DNA of 64,000 bases from Roseiflexaceae bacterium (GTDB lineage: Bacteria; Chloroflexota; Chloroflexia; Chloroflexales; Roseiflexaceae). Of the stretch, positions 1,126-18,660 are shown in pieces. The notes beneath the pieces are model-generated. The model saw nothing but the letters and a program-made list of their open reading frames with translations. It ran no database searches and was not told the origin of the DNA. The stretch spans positions 1-64,000 of the forward strand of contig CANJHS010000009.1 of assembly GCA_947474225.1 (NCBI GenBank). Direction: 5' to 3'. The position numbers and the translations under genes were made by a program. Numbering within the stretch: the first letter of the stretch is position 1; the number at the start of each line of letters is the position of its first letter.

Positions 1126-1773
1126 CTCTTTCCCTTCCATACACGGATGAAATAAAACAAACCAAACGGGAGCGTGCCGATCGCTCGCCAGAGCTGCAAA
1201 TCGAATCAGCTGTGCTTCAGTTACCCGTTCAAGCGAAAGCGGTGGCAGTGTCGCCAGGGTGTACCACTCCACGGCACTGGTCTCGGCGAGGGTTTGCGGT
1301 TGACCGCCAATGACGCGACACAGAAAGTAAATCGTATACACGTGCCAGCCTATGGGTGGGTGACCTTGCACATCACGATCGAGGACCGCCAAAATCCGGT
1401 CGACCTCAACGTGATACCCAGATTCTTCGTAGACTTCACGGACCGCCATACTCGACGGCGCTTCACCGACATCGGCCCAGCCACCGGGCGGGCACCACAA
1501 TCCGTCGGAGCGCTCTTGCACAAGCAAAAACCGTCCCGCATCGTCAATAACAATTGCACGCACACCAACTTTGGGAGTCGCATAGCCACTCTCCATGGCA
1601 TACCAGCGGGCGATGTCTGCAGCAGAATGTTCGGTCAATGACGCGTGCATCTCGGCTGCGAGATGCTGCAACTCCTGATAGCGCTCAATGTCGTACGTGT
1701 CACGGGTATAGCTCAATCCCGTTTGGGCAAGCGCTGCAATGCGTTGTGCCCAACGAGCTATCGAAGGCGTCAT
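1126..1773 (-). CDS. Nudix hydrolase with Nudix_hydro_N-like N-terminal helix domain; no stop codon before argF, so the full ORF is 172-1773
   Basis: Nudix box GWADVGEAPSSMAVREVYEESGY; start overlaps argH stop as ATGA. Confidence 0.85.
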
Positions 1774-3134
1774 TTCGTCATACATCCATGTGCTGCCGCC
1801 AACTGTTCGGCGACAGCTTGGTGACCGGTCGCACCGGGTACCGTTCGTGCGGCTACAGAGGCGTTCATACTGAAGCACTCAATGACATCAGCCTTGAAGG
1901 TTGCATCGATGCGCTGGAATTCTTCCAACGGCAACGCCACCATTTTGACGCCACGCTCTTCGGCGACGCGCACCAACTGCCCCACCACTTTGTGGGCAGT
2001 ACGGAACGGCACACCACGGTCAACCAGATAGTCAGCAACATCTGTGGCCAACATCGCATCATCCAAACCACGCAGCAACGCAGCGTGGTTGAATGTCGCC
2101 GTTGCCAGCGCTCCTGCTGCCACAGGCAAGGTCAATTCAATGGTACGTACTGCATCGAACAAGGGTTCTTTGTCTTCTTGGAGATCCTTGTTGTAGGCAG
2201 ATGGTAAACCTTTGAGGACGGTCAAAATAGTCATCAGGCTGCCTACCAAGCGGCCAGATTTGCCACGCGCCAATTCGAACGAATCGGGGTTCTTCTTTTG
2301 TGGCATCAGACTCGAACCGGTCGAATATGCATCAGCAAGCGACACAAATCCATACTCGGCACTACTATAAAAGACCATGTCTTCGGCTAAGCGGCTGATG
2401 TGAATGCCAATCATCGCTGCCACAAACAGGTATTCGGCGATGAAGTCACGGTCGCTGATCGCATCGACGCTGTTTCGGCTGATGTCGTGCATCCCCAACT
2501 CTGCAGCCAAAGCGCGTCGGTCAACCTTGAGGGGAGTACCAGCGATGGCACCAGAGCCCAGCGGCAACACCGCAACACGGGTCAGACAATCCGCAAGCCG
2601 CTCACGATCACGCTGCAACGGCCAGAAGTGGGACAACAACCAATGCCGTAACAATATGGGCTGGGCGCGCTGCACATGGGTATAGCCAGGGATGATTAAG
2701 TCTTCTGCAGCATCAGCTTGTACCAGGATGGCTCGTTGTACCTCTTGAATACACTCGTCGGTGCGTGCAATTGCGGCCATAACCCACAGCCGGATATCGG
2801 TGGCGACCTGATCGTTGCGGCTCCGACCGGTGTGGAGTTTGCCGGCTACTGCACCGACAATCTCGCCGAGGCGCCGTTCAACGGCGGAGTGAATGTCTTC
2901 GTCGGCTGTTTTGGTAGGGAACGCACCTGATGCAAATTCATCGAAGACGACCTGCAAGCCACGCAACAATTCATCACGCTCGGAGGCAGTGATAACTCCT
3001 GCAGCACATATTTGTCGTGCCCATGCCATGCTACCCCGAATATCTTCGGCCCACATTGCACGATCAAAAGGGAATGAATTGTTCAGCTCGGCCATCAAAA
3101 CGTCAATACCCTGACTAAATCGTCCACCCCACAT
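1770..3134 (-). CDS. argH: Argininosuccinate lyase
   Basis: MWGGRFSQGID..., GSSLMPQKKNPD signature; AAGGAGG upstream of ATG 3134. Confidence 0.97.
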   Translation of the reverse strand: MWGGRFSQGIDVLMAELNNSFPFDRAMWAEDIRGSMAWARQICAAGVITASERDELLRGLQVVFDEFASGAFPTKTADEDIHSAVERRLGEIVGAVAGKLHTGRSRNDQVATDIRLWVMAAIARTDECIQEVQRAILVQADAAEDLIIPGYTHVQRAQPILLRHWLLSHFWPLQRDRERLADCLTRVAVLPLGSGAIAGTPLKVDRRALAAELGMHDISRNSVDAISDRDFIAEYLFVAAMIGIHISRLAEDMVFYSSAEYGFVSLADAYSTGSSLMPQKKNPDSFELARGKSGRLVGSLMTILTVLKGLPSAYNKDLQEDKEPLFDAVRTIELTLPVAAGALATATFNHAALLRGLDDAMLATDVADYLVDRGVPFRTAHKVVGQLVRVAEERGVKMVALPLEEFQRIDATFKADVIECFSMNASVAARTVPGATGHQAVAEQLAAAHGCMTK

Positions 3135-3152
3135 CGTCAAGCCTCCTTATTG

Positions 3153-5582
3153 TCACCGGCCCACAGTTACTCTCCGGCGGAAATAGACTCCCCCTGCCAT
3201 CAGCACTCCCACGGTTGTCCCCCACAAGGCTAACCCCCAGCTCAAACTCGCCGGCCAATACGTAAATACCACCTCGTATGCTCCAGCAGGCACCCAGACA
3301 CCACGGAAGATACCGTTGACAGGGTATATGGGCACACTGGCACCGTTGAGCGTAGCCTGCCACCCCGGATAATTTGTGTCACTCAAAACAAGGACCCCGG
3401 ACGCCTTTGCCACTCCTGTGACAACCACTCGATTAGCCTGGTAGCTTTGTACCTCGGGGACAGTTACCACACCGGTCACGCGCTCCACGACGGGAATCGC
3501 CACATTGGTGACAACCAGCTGTCCCATAGGGAACTGCGGCTCACGTAATCGCGAAAACACGGCCTCCAGGGTAGCCAAGTGCTCAACTCGATGTACCATG
3601 TATGCTCGCGGCAGCGCGTTCGGGTTGAAATAAATACTTCCCTCATCACTCTGGTGTACCAACTCCAACCCGGGGAACTGTGCAATCAGGGGTGACTTCG
3701 GCTGAAATAACACATATCGTACATTGGTCAAGTCGAGCCAACGTGGTGTAATACGTGCGTTGGTCAAGTACATGCTCACACTGTTGCCACCATCCTGCAG
3801 CTTCCCTTCCCAACGCCTTACAAAACGTGCATACTCGCCCCAAATAAGCGAATCAAAGCCACGCACATCGTAGAGCTGTGCAACCATGTTGGTATTGGCT
3901 TGATAAAATGGGTAGTCGGCAGCAAAAATACGAAATATCCCGGGCTGACGTTGTAAAAAGTACTGCATGCGTGTCATTGGTAATACTGGATCCGATGGCA
4001 CATCGGCTGGCACTTCAGCCCGAAAATCGCTCGTGGCCACAACCGTTCGAGGGTCTACTGGTTGGTTCAACGGACGCCAGTACCACCACAGCTGCGTCGC
4101 CACAATCAATAATGCAACCACCGGCATCAAGGGATGGAGAGCCACACGGCGCCACCAGACCGCTGCTGTAGCAACAACTGCCAAACTCGGCCACAGCCAC
4201 TCAACGCCTTGGTATGATGCTAATATCAGCCATGGCAACCCGGGGGTAACCCGCCACGCATACCCGAGGGCAAGCGCAAATGCAAGTGCCGGCACCATGC
4301 CGATCACATGCAAACGAAGCGGAGTCGAGGATTGCAAACGCATGACCGTGGATGCGACCGTCACACCCATCAACAACGACGCTGGCAACATGGCACGGCT
4401 CAATTCCCGAAACTGCGACAAAAGCGGCACACTTTGCCACCAGAATATCGGCGATATTGCATAGCAAACGCAGAGAAGAGCGACACCAGAAAGCACCCGA
4501 AGTCGTGCATCAGCGAGAAGCCACCACCCGCACAACCAGAGCAATAACGGCAAAAGACCAATGTGCCAGTCAGGCAACGTCCCATCTTTGAAGCCCCAAC
4601 TCCCCGTAGTGTGCAGACTCGTCAATAATTCGGGAGCAATGGTAGTCACAATCGACAATGGGTTGTACCCTCCCTTCCCGCCCGCTCGTGATACCGACAA
4701 GCCGAGCTCTACAGTGGGTAAAATTTGGGGTGCCATCAAACCAAAGACCAACACGCCAATCGCTACCAAGCCGGCAATCATATGTGGTACATAGCGTTTC
4801 TGCAGACTCCACACGATGCCAATGGCCACTATGCATCCGGCAATAACCATATACAACGCTGTGTCGGGCTGTGATAAGCCGGCGAGTACAATACCAGCAC
4901 CAAAGTAGACTGCCGCTCGCCTTGCCCCCGCCCAGTCAGCGCTTGCCATACTCGTTCCCAATGCAATAGCACCATACATTGCCATTGGTGTCCATGCGAT
5001 GACGCCACCCATGGTGGGCAAGGCGAGCCATTTACTTGCAAATCCCGAGCCCAAATAGATGACGGGGACCAATAAGGCAGGCAACGGCGCTATGCGTAGA
5101 GAGCGCGCCAGCAACCAGGCACTCACTCCGCCAATCAGCAGATGAAGCCACGCTACCACGCCAAAAGCGTAGTCAGTTGGAAGGAGTGCAAAGAGGGCAG
5201 TGAGCGGATACCAGACACTACTATTTGCAACCGCAAGAAATGGCGTACCACTCAATATATATGGATTCCACAAGGGCAAATGACCCGACCACAACTCGCG
5301 CGCATAAAAGAGCCGCTGTGGGTAATGTTTCAAAATTAAATCGCTCGGCAAGGTGTTGCCAATAGGCATACGCTCGTATGAAAAATTCCAAGGGGGCAAA
5401 TGCACCATGATGTTGAGTGGGAGCCAGGTATGTTGGCCGATCAACACGGGCGCCATGATTGTCGTAATCACAGCAAAGATGATGACCACAAACCACACAT
5501 CTGCTGGTTTACGAGCCCACAGATGATGCATAGATTGCATCAATGATTTCCATGCACCAATCTTTATTTGCACCAAGCTCAT
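3153..5582 (-). CDS. Large polytopic membrane protein, YfhO-like
   Basis: 809 aa, multiple TM segments; N-terminal DLILKHYPQRLFYARELWSGHLPLWNPYILSGTPFLA and C-terminal soluble domain typical of YfhO-like proteins. Confidence 0.75.
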   Translation of the reverse strand: MSLVQIKIGAWKSLMQSMHHLWARKPADVWFVVIIFAVITTIMAPVLIGQHTWLPLNIMVHLPPWNFSYERMPIGNTLPSDLILKHYPQRLFYARELWSGHLPLWNPYILSGTPFLAVANSSVWYPLTALFALLPTDYAFGVVAWLHLLIGGVSAWLLARSLRIAPLPALLVPVIYLGSGFASKWLALPTMGGVIAWTPMAMYGAIALGTSMASADWAGARRAAVYFGAGIVLAGLSQPDTALYMVIAGCIVAIGIVWSLQKRYVPHMIAGLVAIGVLVFGLMAPQILPTVELGLSVSRAGGKGGYNPLSIVTTIAPELLTSLHTTGSWGFKDGTLPDWHIGLLPLLLWLCGWWLLADARLRVLSGVALLCVCYAISPIFWWQSVPLLSQFRELSRAMLPASLLMGVTVASTVMRLQSSTPLRLHVIGMVPALAFALALGYAWRVTPGLPWLILASYQGVEWLWPSLAVVATAAVWWRRVALHPLMPVVALLIVATQLWWYWRPLNQPVDPRTVVATSDFRAEVPADVPSDPVLPMTRMQYFLQRQPGIFRIFAADYPFYQANTNMVAQLYDVRGFDSLIWGEYARFVRRWEGKLQDGGNSVSMYLTNARITPRWLDLTNVRYVLFQPKSPLIAQFPGLELVHQSDEGSIYFNPNALPRAYMVHRVEHLATLEAVFSRLREPQFPMGQLVVTNVAIPVVERVTGVVTVPEVQSYQANRVVVTGVAKASGVLVLSDTNYPGWQATLNGASVPIYPVNGIFRGVWVPAGAYEVVFTYWPASLSWGLALWGTTVGVLMAGGVYFRRRVTVGR

Positions 5583-5657: not shown

Positions 5658-6860
5658 TTACGTCGTATAGTGTGCGTTGACTTCGACGTATTCCTTTGAA
5701 AAGTCGCAGGTCCACATGGTCGTCGCTGCGCTCCCCAAACCGAGGTCCAAGGTGATATAGACATGCTCGCGGTTCAGGAGTTGTGATGCGTCGTTCAAAT
5801 CTGCATCCAATGGCATCCCCGCAGCAACAAGGCGAATTTGTTCGCTCCCCAAACCGAAGTCGAGGGTCAGTGTGTTGGGATCTATTTCGGCGCCGCTATA
5901 GCCAGCTGCACAGACAACACGACCCCAATTCGGGTCATTACCGTGGATTGCGGTCTTGACGAGCGGTGAACAGGCAATGCTGTCTGCTACTCGGTGTGCC
6001 ATCACGCCATCTGTCGCACCGGTAATGCGTATTTCAACGAGTTTGGTAGCACCTTCACCATCACGGGCTATTTTCTTGGCGAGGTCCATGCAGACGTCGG
6101 CAAGCAACGCCACAAATTGTTCAAAGCTGTCGTTACCGATAGTAGCACCCGACACGCCAGAGGCAAGCAAGAGCACCGTGTCGTTGGTACTCATATCGCC
6201 GTCTACGCTTATCCGGTTAAAACTCTGATCTGCCACTGCCTTGACGGCGCGTTGTAGCAACTCAGGGGTACAATCGGCATCGGTCGTAATCATCGACAAC
6301 ATCGTTGCCATGCCGGGATGAATCATTCCTGCGCCCTTGGCCATGCCGGCAACGGTTACCGTTTTGCCGTTGATAATCCCGGTTGCGGTGGCCCGTTTGG
6401 GACGCGTGTCTGTGGTCATGATTGCTTGAGACGATCGCAACGCATCACGACCCATCGTTTGACCCGTCAACAATTGGATTCCTGCGCTCACCTTGGTCAT
6501 GTCCAGCTGGCGCCCGATCACGCCGGTCGACAGTACCAGGACTTCATCGGCACGTGCGCCGATGCCCTGCGCAGTAAGTTCCGCCATGTGCTGTGCATTC
6601 TGCGCGCCCTCGGTCCCCGTGCATGCGTTCGCACAGCCTGCATTGGCCACGATTGCGCGCATGCGACCAGCCGAGGTTACCAACACTGCCTGGTCGTACA
6701 ACACCGGCGCCGCTTTGACGCGGTTGGTAGTGAATACCCCAGCTGCACGACACGGGGCGTCGCTGACGATGATGGTCAAATCGAGTGCACCGTCTTTTTT
6801 GAGTCCACAGGCCGTCGCTGCAGTCCGGAATCCGGGGGCGAGCAGAAATGCATCTGTCAT
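5658..6860 (-). CDS. argJ: Bifunctional ornithine acetyltransferase / N-acetylglutamate synthase
   Basis: KGAGMIHPGMATMLSMITTDA, NDPNWGRVVCAAGYSG motifs. Confidence 0.96.
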   Translation of the reverse strand: MTDAFLLAPGFRTAATACGLKKDGALDLTIIVSDAPCRAAGVFTTNRVKAAPVLYDQAVLVTSAGRMRAIVANAGCANACTGTEGAQNAQHMAELTAQGIGARADEVLVLSTGVIGRQLDMTKVSAGIQLLTGQTMGRDALRSSQAIMTTDTRPKRATATGIINGKTVTVAGMAKGAGMIHPGMATMLSMITTDADCTPELLQRAVKAVADQSFNRISVDGDMSTNDTVLLLASGVSGATIGNDSFEQFVALLADVCMDLAKKIARDGEGATKLVEIRITGATDGVMAHRVADSIACSPLVKTAIHGNDPNWGRVVCAAGYSGAEIDPNTLTLDFGLGSEQIRLVAAGMPLDADLNDASQLLNREHVYITLDLGLGSAATTMWTCDFSKEYVEVNAHYTT

Positions 6861-6863
6861 TGT

Positions 6864-8075
6864 TTATTTCCCGTCCACCAATGCCTGCACCTTCATAGGC
6901 AGACCAAAGATCTTGATGAAGCCGGCAGCATCTTGTTGGTTGTACGTGTCGCTCATCGTGAAGCTCGCGATATCTGGGTTGTACAGGGTGCGGTCTGCTT
7001 TGCGGCCGACCAAGATTGCATTACCTTTATAAAGTTTGAGGCGTACCACGCCGGTGTTGTTCTCTTGGGTAATGTCAAAGAAGGCCTGCATCGCCCGGCG
7101 CAACGGCGTGAACCACTGCCCGTAATACACAACCTCGGCGTAGCGCTGGGCGACAACGTCTTTGTAATGCAGTGTGTCACGGTCGAGTGTCAGTTGCTCG
7201 AGGGCCTGGTGTGCAATGCGGATCAACGTCCCGCCGGGAGTTTCGTAGACGCCGTGCGACTTCATGCCGACCAAGCGGTTTTCGACCAAATCGATACGGC
7301 CAATGCCGTGCTTGGCACCCAGGTTGTTCAACGCGGTCAATAATTCGACGGGACCGAGACGCTTGCCATCGACCGAGACGGGAATACCCTTTTCGAAGGC
7401 AATTTCGACGTATTCTGCCTTGTCCGGAGCATTCTCGGGCGATACCGACAAGGTGTGCATGACTTCTTCGGGCTCGTTCCATGGATCTTCGAGCACGCCC
7501 CCTTCGTGGGACATGTGCCAGATGTTGCGGTCGCGGCTGTAGATCGACTTCAGGGTTGCACTGACGGGCACATTGTGCTCGGCGGCATAGTCGAGGGCGT
7601 CTTCACGTGAGCGGATATTCCATTCACGCCAGGGCGCGATCACGGTGAGTTGCGGTGCATAGACCATGTAGGTCAGCTCGAAGCGGACCTGATCGTTGCC
7701 CTTGCCGGTGCATCCATGGGCGAGTGCATCACAACCCTCGAGCAGCGCGAGTTCAGCTTGGCGCTTGGCAATAAGCGGGCGAGCAACTGAGGTACCCAAA
7801 AGGTACAAGCGTTCGTAACTGGCACCGGATTGAATCAATGGGAACAAGTAGTCTTTGACGAACACTTCGCGCAGGTCTTCGACGTAGCACTTCGACGCAC
7901 CTGATGCGATTGCTTTGGCTTCGAGCCCTTCGATTTCGTCGTCTTGACCGAGATGGCTGCAGTAACAAATGACTTCGGGGTTGCCGTAGTTCTGTTTGAG
8001 CCACGGCACAATGATGCTCGTGTCGAGTCCGCCTGAATACGCCAGCATGACCTTCTTTACCTTCGGACGTTCCAT
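6864..8075 (-). CDS. argG: Argininosuccinate synthase
   Basis: KVMLAYSGGLDTSIIVPWL N-terminus; HGCTGKGNDQVRFE. Confidence 0.97.
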   Translation of the reverse strand: MERPKVKKVMLAYSGGLDTSIIVPWLKQNYGNPEVICYCSHLGQDDEIEGLEAKAIASGASKCYVEDLREVFVKDYLFPLIQSGASYERLYLLGTSVARPLIAKRQAELALLEGCDALAHGCTGKGNDQVRFELTYMVYAPQLTVIAPWREWNIRSREDALDYAAEHNVPVSATLKSIYSRDRNIWHMSHEGGVLEDPWNEPEEVMHTLSVSPENAPDKAEYVEIAFEKGIPVSVDGKRLGPVELLTALNNLGAKHGIGRIDLVENRLVGMKSHGVYETPGGTLIRIAHQALEQLTLDRDTLHYKDVVAQRYAEVVYYGQWFTPLRRAMQAFFDITQENNTGVVRLKLYKGNAILVGRKADRTLYNPDIASFTMSDTYNQQDAAGFIKIFGLPMKVQALVDGK

Positions 8076-8086
8076 TGCTCACTCCT

Positions 8087-11000
8087 TTATGTAAATAAAA
8101 GCTCAACATCGGCACGGGTCAGCGTCTTGATACCCCCGCGTTCTGGTGTGATGAGCTGACTTACCAATTCACGTTTGCGCTCTTGGAGCTGCAAAATCTT
8201 CTCTTCGACCGAGTCGCGTACCACCATCTTGTAGACCATCACCGGTCGTGTTTGGCCGATGCGATGCGTACGGTCGGTCGCCTGCATCTCGACTGCAGGA
8301 TTCCACCATGGGTCAATATGTATGACATAGTCCGCAGCGGTCAGATTGAGCCCAACCCCACCGGCACGCAGACTGATGAGAAAAAACGGATAGCGTGTAT
8401 CATTCTGAAAAGCGTCAATGATACTCTGCCGATCACGGGTTCGGCCATCCAAATAGGCATAGGCAATCCCGCGTTCATCCAACGCCGTACGTACCAGCGT
8501 GAGCATTTGCACAAACTGTGAAAACACCAGCACCCTGTGTCCTGCGGCCTTGAGTGATTCGAGGGTCGCCAATAGCGACTCAAACTTACCCGACCCGCCT
8601 GCACTATTGGGGTCGATGAGGCGTGGATGATTACAAATCTGGCGCAGGCGTAACAACCCTTCGAGCATCTTGACACGCGCTTGCTGCGGCCCTGAGTTTT
8701 CGATCATACCCAACAGTAATGCCCGATAGTGATCACGTTGCGTCGTGTACAAGCGGCGTTGTTCAGGTTCCATATCGCTCATCAAAATGTGTTCGGTACG
8801 CGACGGCAAGTCCGGTGCGACCTGGTCTTTGGTGCGCCGCAGGATGAATGGGAAGGTCAACCGGCGCAACAGTTGCAAGGCTCCTTCGCGCCCTTCGCCC
8901 TCACGTGCAAAGGTGTCGCGGAATGCCTCGGCGGTACCCAATAGGCCAGGATTGAGGAAGGCAAATTGCGACCAGAGTTCGACCGCGTTGTTTTCGATGG
9001 GGGTACCAGTCAAAGACAAGCGTCGGTCACCCTGAAGCCGCCGCACTGCCCGGGCGGTCTCGGCAGTGGGGTTTTTGATTGCCTGCGACTCATCCAGAAT
9101 CAGATATTGGAAGCGATATCCTGACAAAAATTCGATGTCTCGGAGCATCGTCCCATACGTTGTCAGTACTACATCATATGCGTCGAATGGACTGGCATCC
9201 TTCGAACGTCCCTGCTCGATATGCGTCAAAAGCTTGAGCCCAGGAGTGAACGTTCCTGCCTCACGAAGCCAGTTGTAGACCAAAGATCGTGGTAACACAA
9301 TCAAAATCGCACGCGCCCCCGGCGTCCGTTCACGCAATGACTGGATAAAAGCCAGCGTCTGGATGGTTTTGCCAACACCCATGTCATCGGCGAGACACCC
9401 ACCAAAGCCATACCGATTGAGAAAGTGTAACCAGTCGTATCCAGCCTTTTGATAGGAGCGTAAAGTCCCAGTGAATCCTTCTGGGAGAGGCTGTTCTTCG
9501 ATGTGCTCAAAAAGCCGCAACTGTTCACGGCGTTGTTCGAAAGCGTTATCTACCTCGGCACGCTGGGCTTCGTGCACCAGTTGGTCGACGATTGCCGTTT
9601 GGGCAGATGCAAAACGCAAGCGGCCGTCCGTTTCGCTACCCATTGCCAACAATGGTGCGAGTCGCTGGGCAAGCTCATTGGGGACAAAACCTATTGATCC
9701 ATCGGGCAAGAGAATATAGCGCTCACGGCGCAACACGGCGCGCCGAACCACCGCAACATCGACAGATAAATCGCCGAAGTTGACCACTGCCGCGACATCG
9801 AACCAATCGATGTGTGACTGGACTGTGACGGAGAGTTCTGGGACGTCGGTACGGAGTTGTACCGACGTGAGTCCGGCTTCACCCCGTATCTGGAACCCAT
9901 GAGACGCCAGTACACCCACAACTCGCATCAGAAAATCACGGACAGACATAGTTTTGCGCAGACGGAACGTCCCATCCTCTGCGATGCGCAACCCCTGCAG
10001 CTCGAGTAACGCAACACACTCGCGTTCACTGTCTGATTGCCGACGGATGCGCACCAGATGCAGCTCTTCGCTCCCATGCAAAATTGCCTCTGACGCATAC
10101 TGCGCATCAAAAGGCAACTCATATGTTGCATAGCCGAATTCGAGTCGGACGAACACCCCAGAATCGTGTTCTGCCACGGTGATATAGCCGATTGGCTCCT
10201 GATGAACCTCATCCCAACGGACCGCAGCACCGCATAGAGGCACACGCTGGGCGAGTTCGAGTAATCGCTGATCGAAGCGCTCACGGTCATCGACACGGAC
10301 CCGTAGCACGGGCGTCTGCAACAGCTGATCCACGAGCGGTGTGCGTTCACCGATGCACACCAGATTCGCCCCCGTCCACAACCAATGTGGACTGAACGGC
10401 AACAACGTCCGATTTGCTTGATCGACAATCACACTCCGCTGTGCGCTATAGACGATACTCTGCAGGACCAAATCTGTGCCGTCTTCGTCACAGGAAAGCT
10501 GAAGCTCCCCCGGTTCACCATAGACATGCACCGGCTGGCCAAACGTCAATGCGCCGCGGGCGACGTAGACGGTCTGGTCACTGAGCAATGCGAGTGCACC
10601 GGCATACAACCACGCCCGTTGTCCGGGTTGCGCCAAAGACAACGATTGCTCACACAACATTGCTGCTGCTTGCAGAACTGCCATCGGAGAGAGTGGATAG
10701 CCTGCTGGCGTCGGTGGAGCGCGGAGCGGTCGGACATCAGCGCCCTCCCAATCAGTGCGTCCCGCACGCGGTGTGACACTCGCCGGGATTATCGCCCACC
10801 CCTCATCGCCGACGCCAAGCGGATGATTGTGCTGCAAAAAGAAGCACACCACCGTCGCAGTAGCCGTCGCCGTTGTATTGCGCGGACGATCGGACAAGCC
10901 AAATAACGTCTCCCAGGGTTGCGGAGGATTACTGGTCATGTGCGTATACAAGGCTCGTACTGCTGCAACGCGGTGGATGCATGGCCCATCATCGCGGTGG

Positions 11001-11230
11001 ATACAGTCACACAGTGTGGTGACACGGCCTGCAATTAACAGCGTCGTGACGCGGCGCACATGGGTACCGTCAACAACAACTACAACCGCACTCGCAGGCT
11101 CAACCTGCTCGAGGGTCACCCCTCCATTGGTAAGCAAGGCGGTGGCACGACGTACCATTGCCGGTTCGACCGCCTGCAAAAACCCTTCGAGGAGTTCTGG
11201 TGTTATCAACTGCACCCGTGCAATCGTCAT
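8087..11230 (-). CDS. SNF2-family helicase with N-terminal SWIM-type zinc finger
   Basis: [36 protein letters not shown] motifs; [14 protein letters not shown] resembles SWIM CxCxnCxH. Confidence 0.92.
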
Positions 11231-14200
11231 GCCTGTCGTCCCTTGGAAATACCGTAGTGGTCTTGCAACGAACGCACCGTCAGGGTGCGCTGCTGTAGCT
11301 CACGAATACCAGCCACCGTCGCCGCAGCGCCAGTCAATGTGGTGACCAGCATGACTCCGTAGCGAATGGCTGCGGCCCGCAAGGCTTGCCCGTCGTTGTA
11401 TGCCATTGACCCCAATGGCGTGCTGATGACAAGCTGTACCTTGCCCGATGCGATGAGATCTGCGGTGTGTGGCGATCCGTCTGAGATTTTGTTGACCGTG
11501 CTACAGGCAATACCCACCCCTTGGAGCATTTCTGCAGTGCCGCTCGTGGCATAGAGCGCAAAGCCCAGGTGCGACAGATCTTTGGCGATTTTCACGATCG
11601 CGTTCTTGTCGTTGTTGTTGACCGTCAGGAGCGCTCCGCCTTTGGTAGGGATCTTCTGATTGGCACCCATCTCTGCCTTGGCAAACGCCAAGCCAAAGTT
11701 GGAGGCGTGGCCCATGACTTCGCCGGTCGAGCGCATTTCGGGGCTGAGCATGATCGTAGCACCAGGGAATTTATCGAACGGCAACACGGCTTCCTTTACA
11801 AAGAATCCGTCGACCTTGGGCTCTTCGGTGAAGTTGAGCTCCTTCAGGGTCTTGCCGGCCGCAACCTGGGCCGCGATGCTGGCCAACGGGTACCCCGTCG
11901 CTTTGGCGATGAACGGCACCGTACGTGACGAGCGCGGGTTCACCTCGATGACATAAACGACATCGTCCTTGATGGCAAACTGGACGTTCATCAAACCTTT
12001 GACATGCAGCGCAATCCCAATCCGACGCGTCACATCACGGATAATCTCGAGATGATACGAGGTGATTTTGTACGGCGGCAACACCATGGCCGAGTCACCG
12101 GAGTGGACGCCGGCCTCTTCGACATGCTCCATGATGCCGGCGATGACCACCTGGGTATCGTCCCCAATGGCATCGACATCGACTTCGAAGGCATCTTCGA
12201 GGTATTTGTCGATCAACACTGGTGCACCGGCACTCACAACCGTTGCTTCGGCGATGTACTTTTCGAATGAGGCATCGTCATAAGCGATTGCCATTGCACG
12301 TCCACCCAATACATAGCTGGGACGAACGAGCACAGGGTAGCCGATGCGGTGTGCGATTGCGCGGGCGTCCGTCAGATTGTTCGCCATGCCATTCGGTGGC
12401 ATTTCGATATCCATGCTGTTCAGCAATGCACCGAAGCGGCCACGCTCCTCAGCCAAGTCAATGGCGTCGGGCGATGTTCCCCAGATCGGCACACCGTTGG
12501 ATTCGAGTCCATGCGCCAGATTCAATGGGGTCTGCCCACCGAACTGCACCAAAGCAGGTACGCTGCGTTTCGCAGGACCAAAGTCTGCTCCCGCTTCGCG
12601 ATCGTAGATGTTGAGGACGTCTTCGAGTGTCAGGGGCTCGAAGTAAAGGCGGTCTGCCGTGTCATAATCCGTCGACACGGTCTCGGGATTACAGTTGATC
12701 ATGATAGTTTCGATACTGAGGTCACGCAGCGCCATACAGGCGTGCACACAGCAATAGTCGAATTCAATCCCTTGGCCAATACGATTTGGTCCACCGCCGA
12801 TAATCATGGCTTTGGGCTTGTCGCTGACATTGGCCTCGTCACTGCCGGGCTGGCGGCTGTAGGTACTGTAGAAGTATGGTGTCGATGCTTCAAACTCGGC
12901 TGCACAGGTATCGATTTTGCGATACACGGGCACGATTTTGGCTGTTTTGCGGTGACTACGCACGGTAGAAATCGTTGGTTTATCTGACAATGTATACGCC
13001 AATTGTGCATCCGAAAAGCCGTATTCTTTCGCAGCAAACAACAATTCGTTTGGCAATGTCGCGAGGCTATAGCCAGCGAGTTCTTTCTCGAGAGCGACGA
13101 TGTCTTGGAACTGTTCGACGAACCACGGATCAAAACCCGTCCGCTCGCAGATCGACTCGAGCGACGCGCCTGCCCGGATTTCGTCGCATATGCGGAAGAT
13201 GCGTCGGGGTGTTGGGATGCGGATGTCGTCGTTGCCGACCATTTTGACCTGATTGCTACCCACAAAGCCACTGGCACCTATTTCGAGGCCGCGCATGGCT
13301 TTCTGGAAGGCTTCGGCGAACGTACCACCGATGGCCATCACTTCACCGACCGACTTCATCTGCGGACCGAGGATTGGGTCGACTCCTGGGAATTTTTCAA
13401 AGGCCCAGCGCGGTAACTTGACCACTACATAGTCGAGACTCGGTTCGAACGACGCAGGAGTCAGCTTGGTAATGTCGTTGGGGATTTCGTCGAGGGTATA
13501 GCCGACCGCCAACATGGCAGCAATTTTTGCAATGGGGAAGCCAGTTGCCTTGGAGGCCAATGCCGATGAACGGCTCACGCGTGGGTTCATTTCGATGACC
13601 AGTGGGGTACCGGTCTTGGGATCGACGGCGAACTGGATGTTTGAGCCACCGGTCTCGACGCCGATGCGGCGAATGACCATTTTGGCCATCTCTCGTAGGC
13701 GCTGGAGCTCGCGGTCTGTCAACGTCATTGCGGGGGCAACAGTCATCGAGTCGCCGGTATGCACACCCATGGCATCGATGTTTTCGATGGTACAAACGAC
13801 CACAAAATTATCGACACGGTCACGCATGACCTCGAGCTCATATTCCTTCCAGCCGATGACCGACTGTTCGATGAGGACTTGGGTGACGGGCGACGCACGC
13901 AAGCCACGTTCAGATATCTCACGTAGTTGCGCTTCGTCATAGCCGATGCCGCCACCACTGCCACCGAGGGTGAAGGACGGTCGGATCAGCACGGGGTAAC
14001 CGATTTTTTCGGCCACGGCCACTGCCTGGTCGACGGTGGTGACGGTTTCGCCCAAAGGAACACCCAAGCCAATTTCGAGCATGGCTTGTTTGAAGAGCTC
14101 GCGATCCTCGGCCAATGCAATCGCTTCGGGCTGCGCGCCCAGCAATTTGACGTTGTACTTGGTGAGAATGCCGAGTTCATGGAGCTTCATCGCCAAGTTA

Positions 14201-14487
14201 AGAGCGGTTTGGCCACCGACGGTGGGCAAAATCGCATCGGGCTTTTCTTTGATGATAATTTGCTCGATTGCCTCGGGCGTCAACGGCTCGATGTAGGTAG
14301 CGTCAGCGAATTGTGGGTCGGTCATAATGGTGGCTGGATTTGAGTTCACCAGGACGACCCGATATCCCTCACGACGGAGCACTTTGCAGGCTTGTGCGCC
14401 GGAGTAGTCGAATTCACAGGCTTGGCCGATGACAATCGGGCCAGAACCAATAATCAGAATGCTGTGTATGTCGGTACGCTTTGGCAT
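11227..14487 (-). CDS. carB: Carbamoyl-phosphate synthase large subunit
   Basis: 1086 aa; [50 protein letters not shown]; duplicated ATP-grasp halves. Confidence 0.97.
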
Positions 14488-14496
14488 CGCGGCGTC

Positions 14497-15624
14497 TTAT
14501 CCTTCCATCAACTGTACAAACCGGTCGAACAAGTAGGCTGCATCATGGGGACCAGGGGCTGCTTCGGGATGGTATTGGACACTGAATGCCTTCAACCCCG
14601 GAGCTTCGAGCCCTTCGACACAGTCGTCATTCAAATTGACGTGCGTCACACCCGATCCCGCAGGCAACGAGTCGGCTTGTACGGCGAACCCATGGTTGTG
14701 CGACGAAATCTCGACCCGACCGTATGCTTTAACGGGCTGATTCGCGCCGTGATGACCGAAGCGCAATTTATACGTCGTGCCACCCAACGCCAAACCGAGA
14801 ATCTGATGCCCCAAACAGATACCAAACAACGGCACTTTCCCGAGCAGAGCCTTGGTGTTGTCAATAGCATAGGTCACCATCGCAGGGTCGCCAGGGCCAT
14901 TGGACAAAAAGACACCGTCGGGATTGAGCGCCAGGACATCGGCTGCAGGCGTCGTTGCTGGCACTACTGTTATCGTGATATTTCGCTCTGCCAATAGGCG
15001 CAAAATGTGTTGCTTGATGCCGAAGTCATAGGCCACGACGTGCAAACGACGGCTGGCCTTGGTCCCACGCGATCCCAAGCCCCACTCGCCGACACCGGTG
15101 TCCCAGGTATACGCGGATGCGCAGGTTACCTGAGGAACCAAATCGAGGCCTTCCATGCTCGGCACACTGCGTGCCATGGCAACTAATACTGCGGGATCGA
15201 GGACCGTCGAGGAGACGACACCACGCATCGCACCGGCAGAACGGATATGACGCACCAGGGCTCGCGTGTCGATGCCGGTGATGCCGACGATGCCCTGGGC
15301 ACGCATTTCGTCATCGAGCGAAGAATCAGCACGGTAATTGCTGACGCGTGGGCTTGCCGCACGTACCACAAACCCAGATAACCAATACTTGCGGCTTTCG
15401 TTGTCGGCATCATTCACACCCGTATTCCCGATGTGCGGTGCCGTCATGACAACAATTTGATTAAAGTACGAAGGATCCGACAATACCTCTTGGTAGCCGG
15501 TCATCGCCGTATTGAATACCACTTCACCGGTCCGTTGGCCGATGGCGCCGAATGCACTGCCGGCCCATATGGTGCCGTCTTCGAGTGCCAGCACTGCTGG
15601 TGTACGTAGGAACCCTGCCTGCAT
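14497..15624 (-). CDS. carA: Carbamoyl-phosphate synthase small subunit
   Basis: GLSNGPGDP-like region (VFLSNGPGDPAMV), LFGICLGHQILGLALGG. Confidence 0.96.
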   Translation of the reverse strand: MQAGFLRTPAVLALEDGTIWAGSAFGAIGQRTGEVVFNTAMTGYQEVLSDPSYFNQIVVMTAPHIGNTGVNDADNESRKYWLSGFVVRAASPRVSNYRADSSLDDEMRAQGIVGITGIDTRALVRHIRSAGAMRGVVSSTVLDPAVLVAMARSVPSMEGLDLVPQVTCASAYTWDTGVGEWGLGSRGTKASRRLHVVAYDFGIKQHILRLLAERNITITVVPATTPAADVLALNPDGVFLSNGPGDPAMVTYAIDNTKALLGKVPLFGICLGHQILGLALGGTTYKLRFGHHGANQPVKAYGRVEISSHNHGFAVQADSLPAGSGVTHVNLNDDCVEGLEAPGLKAFSVQYHPEAAPGPHDAAYLFDRFVQLMEG

Positions 15625-15627
15625 GCC

Positions 15628-16161
15628 TTACTGTCCCTTCCCATCGACGTCAGAACGTCGGGTGGCAAATTCAATCACGACTGCTACTTCATCACACCGC
15701 GCCTGTAACGGGCACAACACACAGTCCCGCCAGACTTTCTCGGGGAAGCGTTCGTGTTCGGTCACGACGAACCCCTGCCGCTCAAAAAAACTCACCGCTC
15801 GTGTCAACGCGAATACCGTCGGGTAACCGCGGCGCTGGGCTTCACGAACGAGTGCAGTGACTACTTCACCGCCGACGCCGTAGCGTCGATATTCGGGTAA
15901 TACGGCCAGTGACCGTACTTCGACGAGGGCAGGTCCCATCTCGAGGAGTGAACCGATGCCCACGACTTTGCCTTCGACTTCGGCGACCATCCAGTTGCCC
16001 ACGGACGAGACGATATTCTCGCGCGTGCGTGGCAACAGATGACCGAGCGCGACATTTTCGTCGACCACGACTTTGATTGCATCGACATCATCGTGGGTAG
16101 CGAGTCGCATATGGACAGCAGACGGCGGCTTGCTGGTGGCGACATCGCGAATAATCGTCAT
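15628..16161 (-). CDS. GNAT N-acetyltransferase, short ArgA-like N-acetylglutamate synthase candidate
   Basis: EVRSLAVLPEYRRYGVGGEVVTALVREAQRRGYPTVFALTRAVSFFERQGF; position beside argB; ATGA overlap with argB. Confidence 0.8.
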   Translation of the reverse strand: MTIIRDVATSKPPSAVHMRLATHDDVDAIKVVVDENVALGHLLPRTRENIVSSVGNWMVAEVEGKVVGIGSLLEMGPALVEVRSLAVLPEYRRYGVGGEVVTALVREAQRRGYPTVFALTRAVSFFERQGFVVTEHERFPEKVWRDCVLCPLQARCDEVAVVIEFATRRSDVDGKGQ

Positions 16162-16949
16162 GCGACACCTCCCATGACTATCACGGTGCCCGCTTCATTG
16201 CCGGCCGCCAATTCTTCGAGGCCCTGCACATCAACGATGCGTGCTCGGGCTACCCCTGCTGCAAGAACAGCCAATGCAGCTTTTACTTTGGGGATCATGC
16301 CGCCGTAGATTGCTCCACTGATAATTGCCGCATCGATTGCCGGTGCATCCAACTGCGCGACCACTGCTCCATCGAGCTTGACGCCGGGCACATTGGTCAC
16401 AAACGTGACCTCAACTGATCCGGTAGGTCTGTCTTGGGCCAATGCTGCGGCGATTGCGCCGGCTGCGTCATCTGCATTGACATTATAACTGCCATCGTCC
16501 CCCAACGAGATGGGGGCTACGACGGGGACGACATCTGCCTCGAGCGCTTGCCAAAGCACTGTAGTACGTACCGCAACCGGGTCGCCTACACGCCCCAAAT
16601 CCCCTTCGGGATGGACGAGCTTGGTGACACGAATGAGGCCGCGGTCGACTCCCGACATTCCGGCAGCATCAACCCCAGCCAGACCCAAGGCGACAACTAA
16701 CCGTGTGTTGACTGCTCCGGCCAATACCATTTCGGCGGCGGCCATTGCGGTGTCGTCGCTGACGCGCAACCCGGCCACAAACCGTGGTTCACCGCCCAGC
16801 GCCTGCTGGATTTGCCCGATTTCTTTGCCACCGCCATGGACGATGACTGGTTTGGGAGTCATGGCGGCGATGGCTTTGACTAGGCGTTGCACAAACGCCG
16901 AGTCATCGATGTCATTCCCGCCAATTTTGATTACACGCAGTGTGGTCAA
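16158..16949 (-). CDS. argB: Acetylglutamate kinase
   Basis: VIKIGGNDID, VIVHGGGKEIGQ, NVNADDAAGAIAAAL. Confidence 0.94.
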   Translation of the reverse strand: MTTLRVIKIGGNDIDDSAFVQRLVKAIAAMTPKPVIVHGGGKEIGQIQQALGGEPRFVAGLRVSDDTAMAAAEMVLAGAVNTRLVVALGLAGVDAAGMSGVDRGLIRVTKLVHPEGDLGRVGDPVAVRTTVLWQALEADVVPVVAPISLGDDGSYNVNADDAAGAIAAALAQDRPTGSVEVTFVTNVPGVKLDGAVVAQLDAPAIDAAIISGAIYGGMIPKVKAALAVLAAGVARARIVDVQGLEELAAGNEAGTVIVMGGVA

Positions 16950-16961
16950 TGCGACGCCTTT

Positions 16962-17432
16962 CTAGCCCTGTTTGGTCAGGTCTGAACCCTGCAATGTATA
17001 GGTGTACCAAGCTTCTCGGCTGGTAGGGAGTGCGTCATAGAGCTTCTGTGCGCTGTGATTATCGAGGGCAGTCTGCCAATACACCCCCGGATAGCCCTCG
17101 CTGAGCGCCCAATTGGTGCAATGCAGGATCAACTGCCGGCCGACCCCCGTTCCGCGGTGCTCCGGCATCACATACAGGTCGTTGAGCAGACAACGCTTGG
17201 CAGCAGATACGGACGACAAGGTTCGATAGGCAGTCACAAAACCAATTGCCTGCCCCGTCTGGGTCGTCGCCATCCACTGTGCCCCCAGTGCAGGAGTTGT
17301 CGCCAACGCACCGAAGTGTGCCCGATTGCGCTCCGTGTCGGGAGTTGCTTGGTAGAACGTCTGGTAGGCGGCAATAAGCGGCAAGGCCATATCGAGGTTC
17401 GCCATCGTTACCGGAATTATCGACACCGTCAT
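16962..17432 (-). CDS. GNAT family acetyltransferase
   Basis: NDLYVMPEHRGTGVGRQLI acetyl-CoA motif; ATGA overlap with argC stop. Confidence 0.85.
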   Translation of the reverse strand: MTVSIIPVTMANLDMALPLIAAYQTFYQATPDTERNRAHFGALATTPALGAQWMATTQTGQAIGFVTAYRTLSSVSAAKRCLLNDLYVMPEHRGTGVGRQLILHCTNWALSEGYPGVYWQTALDNHSAQKLYDALPTSREAWYTYTLQGSDLTKQG

Positions 17433-18439
17433 TGCAATCCCTCCGTCTCGTCGAGTCCACACATCAGGTTCATACATTGAATGGCCTGCGTTGCCGCACC
17501 CTTGGCCAAATTATCAATACTCGACATGATCGTCAGCCAGCCCGGCTGCGTCAGCGTCACTGACAACCCACACATATTGGTGTTGGTCGTATGTGCCATC
17601 GCCGCGAGCGTTCCCGCAGGCAACACGCGAACGAATGGTTCATCCGCATACCGCGCCAGATACAACGCGCGGATATCGTCTTCGCTCAATGTGGGGGCGA
17701 CACGCACATAGATTGCGCTCAACATGCCACGCACGACAGGCACCAAATGGGGATGGAACAACACGGTCGGCGATATCCCGCGGCTGTGTTTGGCAAGCTC
17801 TTGTTCCATTTCGCCGACATGCCGGTGAATGTGCCCGATGTTGTACGGCGTGACCGTGTCGTGCGTCTCGCCAAAAAGGGTATTGATTTTGGCAGCGCGG
17901 CCCGCGCCTGAAATGCCGGATTTTGCATCGACAATGATGGTGCCATCGGTCACCACACCCGCATCAAACAGCGGCATGGTGCCAAGGATGACGGAAGTGG
18001 GATAACAGCCGGGTGCCGCCACCAGACGTGCAGAGCGGATGGCGCTACGATTGCGCTCCGGCATCCCGTATGGCACAGGCAACATCTCGGGGAAGTCGTG
18101 TGCATGGCCATACCAGGTCGCATAGCGATCGGGAGTGTCGAGCCGGAAGTCCGCCGAAAAGTCCACTACCTTTGCGCCCGCTGCCAATGCCCGCACCGCC
18201 ACCTTGGCAGCCGCACCATGTGGCAGTGCAAGCAACACCACATCAACCTGGTCGAACGGCGCGTCTTCGACGGATGTCAGCACAATATCGAGTGGGCCAG
18301 GGTATACCTCTGCCAATGACTTGCCAGCCTGGGCTTCGGACGTTGCAAAGACTACGGAGACCGCACGATGCCGCGTCAGCCAACGCAATGCTTCGTAGCC
18401 GGCATATCCTGTCACTCCACAGATCCCCACTCGCACCAT
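17429..18439 (-). CDS. argC: N-acetyl-gamma-glutamyl-phosphate reductase
   Basis: MVRVGICGVTGYAGYEALRWL; PGCYPTSVILG active site region; GAAAGGA upstream of ATG 18439. Confidence 0.96.
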   Translation of the reverse strand: MVRVGICGVTGYAGYEALRWLTRHRAVSVVFATSEAQAGKSLAEVYPGPLDIVLTSVEDAPFDQVDVVLLALPHGAAAKVAVRALAAGAKVVDFSADFRLDTPDRYATWYGHAHDFPEMLPVPYGMPERNRSAIRSARLVAAPGCYPTSVILGTMPLFDAGVVTDGTIIVDAKSGISGAGRAAKINTLFGETHDTVTPYNIGHIHRHVGEMEQELAKHSRGISPTVLFHPHLVPVVRGMLSAIYVRVAPTLSEDDIRALYLARYADEPFVRVLPAGTLAAMAHTTNTNMCGLSVTLTQPGWLTIMSSIDNLAKGAATQAIQCMNLMCGLDETEGLQ

Positions 18440-18467: not shown

Positions 18468-18506
18468 AAAAATCCCCCCGGACGCATATAGCTCCCGAGG
18501 GGTGAT
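18468..18506 (-). terminator. Intrinsic terminator in the argC leader (attenuator)
   Basis: Minus strand ATCACCCCTCGGG-AGCTATATGCG-TCCGGGGGGAT followed by TTTTT, 29 nt upstream of argC ATG. Confidence 0.8.
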
Positions 18507-18531
18507 ATTCTGTATTGGAGACGTTCCCGCC

Positions 18532-18624
18532 CTACCCAATGCGAATCACCGACCCGGGTCCTATTCGGACTCGTCGTCGGTCAGCTCGTCGCAACATAGG
18601 GGTAGTGTGTGTCTGATTGATCAT
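18532..18624 (-). CDS. Candidate arginine-rich leader peptide MINQTHTTPMLRRADRRRVRIGPGSVIRIG*
   Basis: Directly translated; 7 Arg codons of 30 (6 CGA, 1 CGC); lies between promoter and terminator upstream of argC. Confidence 0.72.
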   Translation of the reverse strand: MINQTHTTPMLRRADRRRVRIGPGSVIRIG

Positions 18625-18631
18625 GTTGTAC

Positions 18632-18660
18632 ATAGTAATAGGAAAATCACGCACTGTCAA
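18632..18660 (-). promoter_or_regulatory. Sigma70-type promoter of the arg operon, TTGACA-N17-TACTAT
   Basis: Perfect -35, 17-bp spacer, 4/6 -10; located in the gap after the DinB stop. Confidence 0.75.

Follow-up and report, generated by a model that had tools for sequence, protein, structure and literature searches.

The argC-to-argF operon and its leader

The window, the whole stretch of 64,000 nucleotides analysed here, carries on its minus strand a tightly packed run of genes extending from 18439 to 172, which begins with argC and ends with argF (Table 1). It comes from a freshwater bacterium, and an ArgC search placed it, by its named relatives, in the Roseiflexaceae (Chloroflexota). 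The argC-to-argF operon named in a preliminary description of this DNA was verified by protein family searches, which gave the content argC-argB-carA-carB-argG-argJ-argH-argF and revealed no argD within the run. That these genes are read as a single transcript is inferred from their spacing. Also embedded in the operon are genes for a SNF2-type helicase and for a protein of 809 aa that matched no NCBIfam model.

Table 1. Coordinates of the leader and operon features within the window.
Feature	Position	Strand	Details
Sigma-70-type promoter TTGACA-N17-TACTAT	18632-18660	minus	TTGACA 18660-18655, 17-nt spacer, TACTAT 18637-18632
Leader ORF MINQTHTTPMLRRADRRRVRIGPGSVIRIG, 30 codons	18532-18624	minus	ATG 18624-18622, TAG 18534-18532
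Arg codon cluster, proposed stall site	18565-18591	minus	Codons 12, 13, 16, 17, 18 and 20, all CGA
Segment 1, 5' arm of attenuator hairpin 1:2	18567-18581	minus	Holds CGA16-18 run; -17.5 kcal/mol
Segment 2	18545-18561	minus	3' arm of 1:2 (18561-18548) and antiterminator 5' partner (18558-18545)
Segment 3, ATCACCCCTCGGG	18494-18506	minus	Antiterminator 3' partner and terminator 5' arm CCCCTCGGG (18502-18494)
Segment 4, TCCGGGGGG	18468-18482	minus	Terminator 3' arm (18482-18474) and T5 tract (18472-18468)
argC, first structural gene	17429-18439	minus	TIGR01850, 351.6 bits; ATG 18439 by homology
GNAT acetyltransferase	16962-17477	minus	Protein family search
argB	16158-16949	minus	TIGR00761
ArgA-like GNAT	15628-16161	minus	Protein family search
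carA	14497-15624	minus	Protein family search
carB	11227-14487	minus	Protein family search
SNF2-type helicase	8087-11230	minus	Protein family search; between carB and argG
argG	6864-8075	minus	Protein family search
argJ	5658-6860	minus	Protein family search
809-aa protein	3153-5582	minus	No NCBIfam match; between argJ and argH
argH	1770-3140	minus	Protein family search
argF	within ORF 172-1878	minus	Protein family search; ornithine carbamoyltransferase domain from residue 257

The preliminary description had read the sequence before argC as an arginine-codon leader-peptide attenuator, and the promoter, start codon, ORF, hairpin arms and terminator all lie on the minus strand where it had located them; its count of seven arginine codons among the 30 also proved correct (six CGA and one CGC). 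The leader ATG stands 7 nt past the -10 box, so that the RNA is expected to start on or beside this codon and a Shine-Dalgarno sequence is absent, there being no room for one. The ORF thus appears to be leaderless, a reading in which the start site itself is inferred from the sequence. A hairpin followed by the T5 tract (18502-18468) was predicted by folding to form upstream of the argC ATG with -21.8 kcal/mol. Complementarity between the 3' arm of the first hairpin and the terminator arm had also been noted and is present, but not at the 6-bp length originally given, as CCCGGGTCGGTGAT (18558-18545) pairs with ATCACCCCTCGGG (18506-18494) through two 6-bp helices and a small internal loop (-18.4 kcal/mol).

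At the arginine frequency of the operon, the probability of at least seven arginine codons in 30 is 0.002, and an open frame with at least six within nine codons was obtained in 0.095% of dinucleotide shuffles; judged alone, the arginine richness of this leader is improbable, not extraordinary. The use of CGA for six of the seven codons is striking, given that CGA makes up 13% of arginine codons in neighbouring genes (P = 2.6e-5 for at least six of seven). The window's own 2:3 pairing is barely above shuffles (p = 0.12). Loosely defined Arg-rich ORFs arise in roughly 10-40% of shuffled leaders, which makes any single case weak and leaves room for a fixed terminator that merely trims transcription, with constitutive partial read-through, behind an ORF that is Arg-rich by chance. 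Against this, the terminator has the promoter between itself and the upstream gene and hence acts on the operon's own transcript. The decisive support for attenuation comes from conservation among relatives rather than from the statistics of the window.

Conservation and co-varying helices in two families

Regions upstream of argC were drawn from 23 Roseiflexaceae for which they could be recovered and from nine Herpetosiphonaceae. The order promoter-ORF-terminator before argC was found in 23/23 and 8/9 respectively, i.e. in all 31 usable leaders; in the ninth Herpetosiphonaceae genome (G048) argC lies directly behind a GNAT gene. For three genomes (G014, G018 and G046) the automatic search settled on a different hairpin; their terminator before argC is evident in the sequence and was located during masked folding. 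TTGACA with a fitting -10 box was matched by regular expression in every leader of the two families, with a spacer of 17 nt in 25 and a longer one with an alternative -10 in the other six. The ORFs have 24-36 codons, 5-7 of them for arginine, with an ATG 4-10 nt after the matched -10; MNQTPDNLRTLRRFRRPGRTGLEG, MNQIYNKPHNLRRRSRRPARTGSVGG and MKKQMLTNLFSPALRLRRPRTNEVRWACAVCAG are examples of the encoded peptides. The arginine run is written with CGA in the window's genus and with CGT, CGC or CGG in other genera, and as the codons differ while arginine stays, it is the amino acid and not the DNA that is conserved. The window's genus prefers the rare codon CGA (six of seven, where other genera use CGT/CGC), whose slow decoding may make for a sharper sensor.

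Each leader folds into a hairpin at or directly after the arginine run and a terminator. In representatives, the 3' arm of the hairpin is complementary to the 5' arm of the terminator, with a pairing energy of -21.9 kcal/mol within genomes against -17.8 kcal/mol across genomes; this 2:3 helix lies at the same place and exceeded shuffles in 11 of 19 (p < 0.05), although in the related Roseiflexaceae pair G012/G018 it was no better than shuffles. For a 10-bp core helix aligned in 12 leaders, 104 of 120 positions paired within the same leader compared with 97.2 +- 1.9 after permutation (P = 1e-4), and at position 5 of this helix changes from G-C to A-U occurred in two lineages from different families (G017 and G033). 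Across 14 lineages both the 1:2 helix (-16.5 kcal/mol own, -12.6 +- 0.6 swapped) and the 2:3 helix (-22.3 own, -18.4 +- 0.8 swapped) exceeded all 20,000 permutations. These pairing statistics rest on a hand-made alignment or on related representatives with kinship ignored, and their P values are generous.

The preliminary description had proposed that relatives be compared for a conserved Arg-rich short ORF and for covariation of the alternative stems, and had named a terminator kept without such an ORF as grounds for refutation. The ORF was present, with synonymous codon changes, in 31/31 usable leaders, helices 1:2 and 2:3 co-vary between lineages, and none of the 31 relatives retained the terminator alone. 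A fixed terminator with a chance ORF accounts for neither the synonymous changes nor the fixed order of elements nor the covariation of both helices in 31/31 leaders, and we regard it as highly improbable.

Beyond the arginine codons and the complementarity, primary sequence is not conserved between the families. The nascent chain, carrying Arg-Arg-Pro in most lineages, might itself stall the ribosome on free arginine or a polyamine, in the manner of the fungal arginine attenuator peptide, instead of the ribosome responding to a shortage of Arg-tRNA. Arg-Arg-Pro does recur across families; it is, however, missing from the window's own genus (RRADRRRVR), its proline codon falls within an arm of the hairpin, where base pairing may be the reason for its retention, and if high arginine caused the stall, an excess of arginine would switch the operon on, contrary to what a biosynthetic pathway requires. 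Outside the arginine cluster the peptides diverge strongly between families, a following proline being all that most lineages have in common, and comparison of the leaders across relatives did not reveal the conserved peptide beyond the sensor codons that would be expected of an arrest peptide. We consider such an arrest peptide very unlikely, without dismissing it entirely.

Predicted switching and the proposed attenuator

The attenuation logic of 1:2, 2:3 and 3:4 pairing put forward in the preliminary description was borne out in silico, in that masked folding reproduced the expected switch in 31/31 leaders. With the RNA masked up to a ribosome stalled with its A site on an arginine codon of the run, and segment 4 not yet made, 9-18 bp of 2:3 formed in all 31; with a ribosome at the stop codon, segment 2 was covered and 3:4 formed; and with no ribosome 3:4 formed everywhere and 1:2 in most. 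At equilibrium with segment 4 present, 3:4 often beats 2:3 even when the ribosome is stalled, and because this holds in many leaders switching must be kinetic, with 2:3 forming first.

By these analyses the leader has each defining feature of a leader-peptide attenuator that sequence analysis can test. It has an ORF rich in codons for the end product downstream of the operon promoter and an intrinsic terminator between this ORF and argC, with equivalents in relatives. Its antiterminator is exclusive of both 1:2 and 3:4 and co-varies, if weakly supported in the window (p = 0.12) and in G012/G018. Masked partition functions indicate the required geometry, in which a stall on the arginine codons masks segment 1 only and a ribosome at the stop codon masks segment 2. 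The arginine response itself is inferred.

We propose, with a probability of roughly 0.9 and in the absence of expression data, that 18468-18660 acts as a ribosome-mediated transcription attenuator, specific for arginine, which controls the argC-to-argF operon. Transcription would start at or just before the leader ATG and a ribosome would translate the leader ORF. When Arg-tRNA is ample, the ribosome would reach the stop codon and cover segment 2, allowing the 3:4 terminator to form and transcription to end before argC. When it is scarce, the ribosome would stall on the arginine codons, mostly the rare CGA here, masking segment 1 and freeing segment 2 to pair with segment 3 ahead of the synthesis of segment 4, and the operon would be read. 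Without translation, 1:2 and 3:4 are predicted to form and to leave the operon off. The start site, translation of the leader, stalling and regulated termination are all inferences in this scheme.

ArgR, related leaders and known systems

ArgR (TIGR01529) was detected in none of 60 relatives, with control genomes positive and the window's own assembly 87% complete, nor in any of 14 distant genomes, among them 12 with a leader. Of 131 sampled Chloroflexota, 23 have it, and none of these 23 carries the leader. ArgR was thus not detected in any of the 45 leader-carrying genomes; such absence is less certain in draft than in complete genomes. Some families without the leader also lack ArgR. The terminator might still serve a trans-acting ArgR-like protein or a small-molecule riboswitch, the ORF being secondary, as ArgR controls arg genes in other bacteria and RNA elements for other ligands use terminators. 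This reading has little to sustain it beyond those precedents, and we give it hardly any credence: the 60 relatives lack a detectable ArgR, the leader has no Rfam match, and conservation between families is confined to the arginine codons and the complementarity, unlike that of a ligand pocket. No T-box riboswitch or other Rfam leader was matched at gathering score, and a permissive scan gave only chance-level matches. A weak hammerhead-like score at 18583-18546 (15.4 bits against a cut-off of 34) comes from the attenuator hairpin and was discounted.

Arg-rich ORFs that are more diverged, again with a terminator ahead of argC, were found in G135 and G090, in a member of the Thermoflexales (L051) and in metagenome-assembled genomes of Anaerolineae and other Chloroflexota (L052, L054-L062 and L108). 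An antiterminator segment beginning 8-17 nt after the arginine run was predicted in 11/11 of those tested, and five of the 11 were significant against mononucleotide shuffles (p < 0.05); several of these leaders would use GTG as start codon, and their promoters conform less clearly to the leaderless pattern. A loose scan (any start codon, three arginines in six codons) had a shuffle rate of 3-50% and caught protein ends in Proteobacteria, and was not used for counts.

No such argC leader was seen in Chloroflexaceae-type genomes (f4) or in a further family of the order (f2). Upstream of argC the former (L117, L118, L119, L146 and L151) have a conserved block of about 180 nt that appears to be structured, with the motifs GGCGCATC...GATGCGCC, GCCGG...CCGGC and GGCTGCGTGAAGCAGC, followed just before argC by a conserved 28-aa ORF, MFTRILxFLRRLGQIHPAVIAIAPDRTW. 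The block had no Rfam match at E 0.1 and is possibly an unknown regulatory RNA or leader peptide.

A search of the window's own genome for the promoter-plus-ATG pattern returned 22 places, the arginine leader among them. Another, of the same build, is a Thr-rich leaderless ORF, MNTPICATITTTTTTPTRTTTRVRRCI, followed by a terminator (G000:C14:55205-55243, minus strand; L213, minus-strand pattern at 1501). The gene behind the terminator starts MLLADYREYLPITDKTPLLSLSEGHTPLL, from which we take it to be that for threonine synthase (thrC). G010 has a Thr-rich leaderless ORF, MISHSCATTTTTILTHTTTRVSTW, with a terminator at the same thrC-like gene (G010:C1:6259, L232). These are probably threonine attenuators, which favours the idea that the window's genus makes general use of leaderless attenuation. 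In G010 a leaderless ORF containing lysine and arginine, MQITDAIIAKQQKRAKKPDNVSG, with a -29 kcal/mol terminator (L248, G010:C23:38534-38572, minus strand), precedes a gene that reads like a LysE-family exporter, and an attenuator of basic amino acid export is possible there. A second match to the leader in the window's own genome (C74, L002) proved to be an ordinary terminator whose GC-rich stem is similar.

On balance we lean towards the view that leaderless leader-peptide attenuation is old and general in Chloroflexota, with an arginine form at argC in several families and classes and a threonine form at thrC, and that the arginine form replaces the missing ArgR, governing nearly the whole pathway by one RNA switch. 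The conserved arginine leader offers an explanation of how ArgR-less Chloroflexota could control arginine synthesis, and it predicts many unannotated leaderless genes of 24-36 codons. Cultured relatives with complete genomes among the sets searched (e.g. Herpetosiphon aurantiacus) make the attenuator testable.

Bacterial arginine biosynthesis is usually described as the territory of ArgR. ArgR-operator control has the same arg target genes but acts through a DNA-binding repressor, which was undetected in any leader-carrying genome. Leader-peptide transcription attenuators are classical for trp, his, leu, ilv and thr operons in Proteobacteria and Actinobacteria. The window leader resembles these in its ORF with codon runs for the regulated amino acid, its 1:2/2:3/3:4 arrangement and a terminator just before the operon; it differs in sensing arginine, in heading an arginine operon, in belonging to the Chloroflexota and in being apparently leaderless. 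In fungi, the arginine attenuator peptide (the CPA1/arg-2 uORF) is one on whose nascent chain arginine acts to cause translational arrest. It shares with the window leader an upstream peptide ORF, an arginine-pathway gene and an arginine response, but it is eukaryotic, works by arresting translation and has no terminator.

Leaderless attenuator ORFs have precedents in Sinorhizobium meliloti trpL (PMC7298713) and, as discussed, in Corynebacterium glutamicum ilvBNC (PMC11857589), where the RNA 5' end likewise lies at or near the leader ATG, but these sense tryptophan or branched-chain amino acids and belong to other phyla. In Salmonella, consecutive arginine codons of the short ORF orf34 of speF sense arginine by ribosome pausing (PMC6386406). 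Arginine codons in a short ORF are again the sensor, but orf34 acts on ornithine decarboxylase by way of Rho, RNase G and the accessibility of the ribosome-binding site (PMC6386406), without an intrinsic terminator and with a target outside arginine biosynthesis.

We found no report of an arginine attenuator for arginine biosynthesis, or of such attenuation in Chloroflexota, in the open literature searched; subscription papers were largely outside its scope, and a mention is possible in Lopatovskaya et al. (2010), a comparative survey of attenuators, cited in PMC4833913. The proposed mechanism is classical ribosome-mediated transcription attenuation. What looks unreported, within that literature, is the arginine specificity for arginine biosynthesis, the spread in Chloroflexota and the apparent replacement of ArgR, and a conserved Arg-codon attenuator in genomes without detectable ArgR would add both an amino acid and a phylum to the known range of leader-peptide attenuation.
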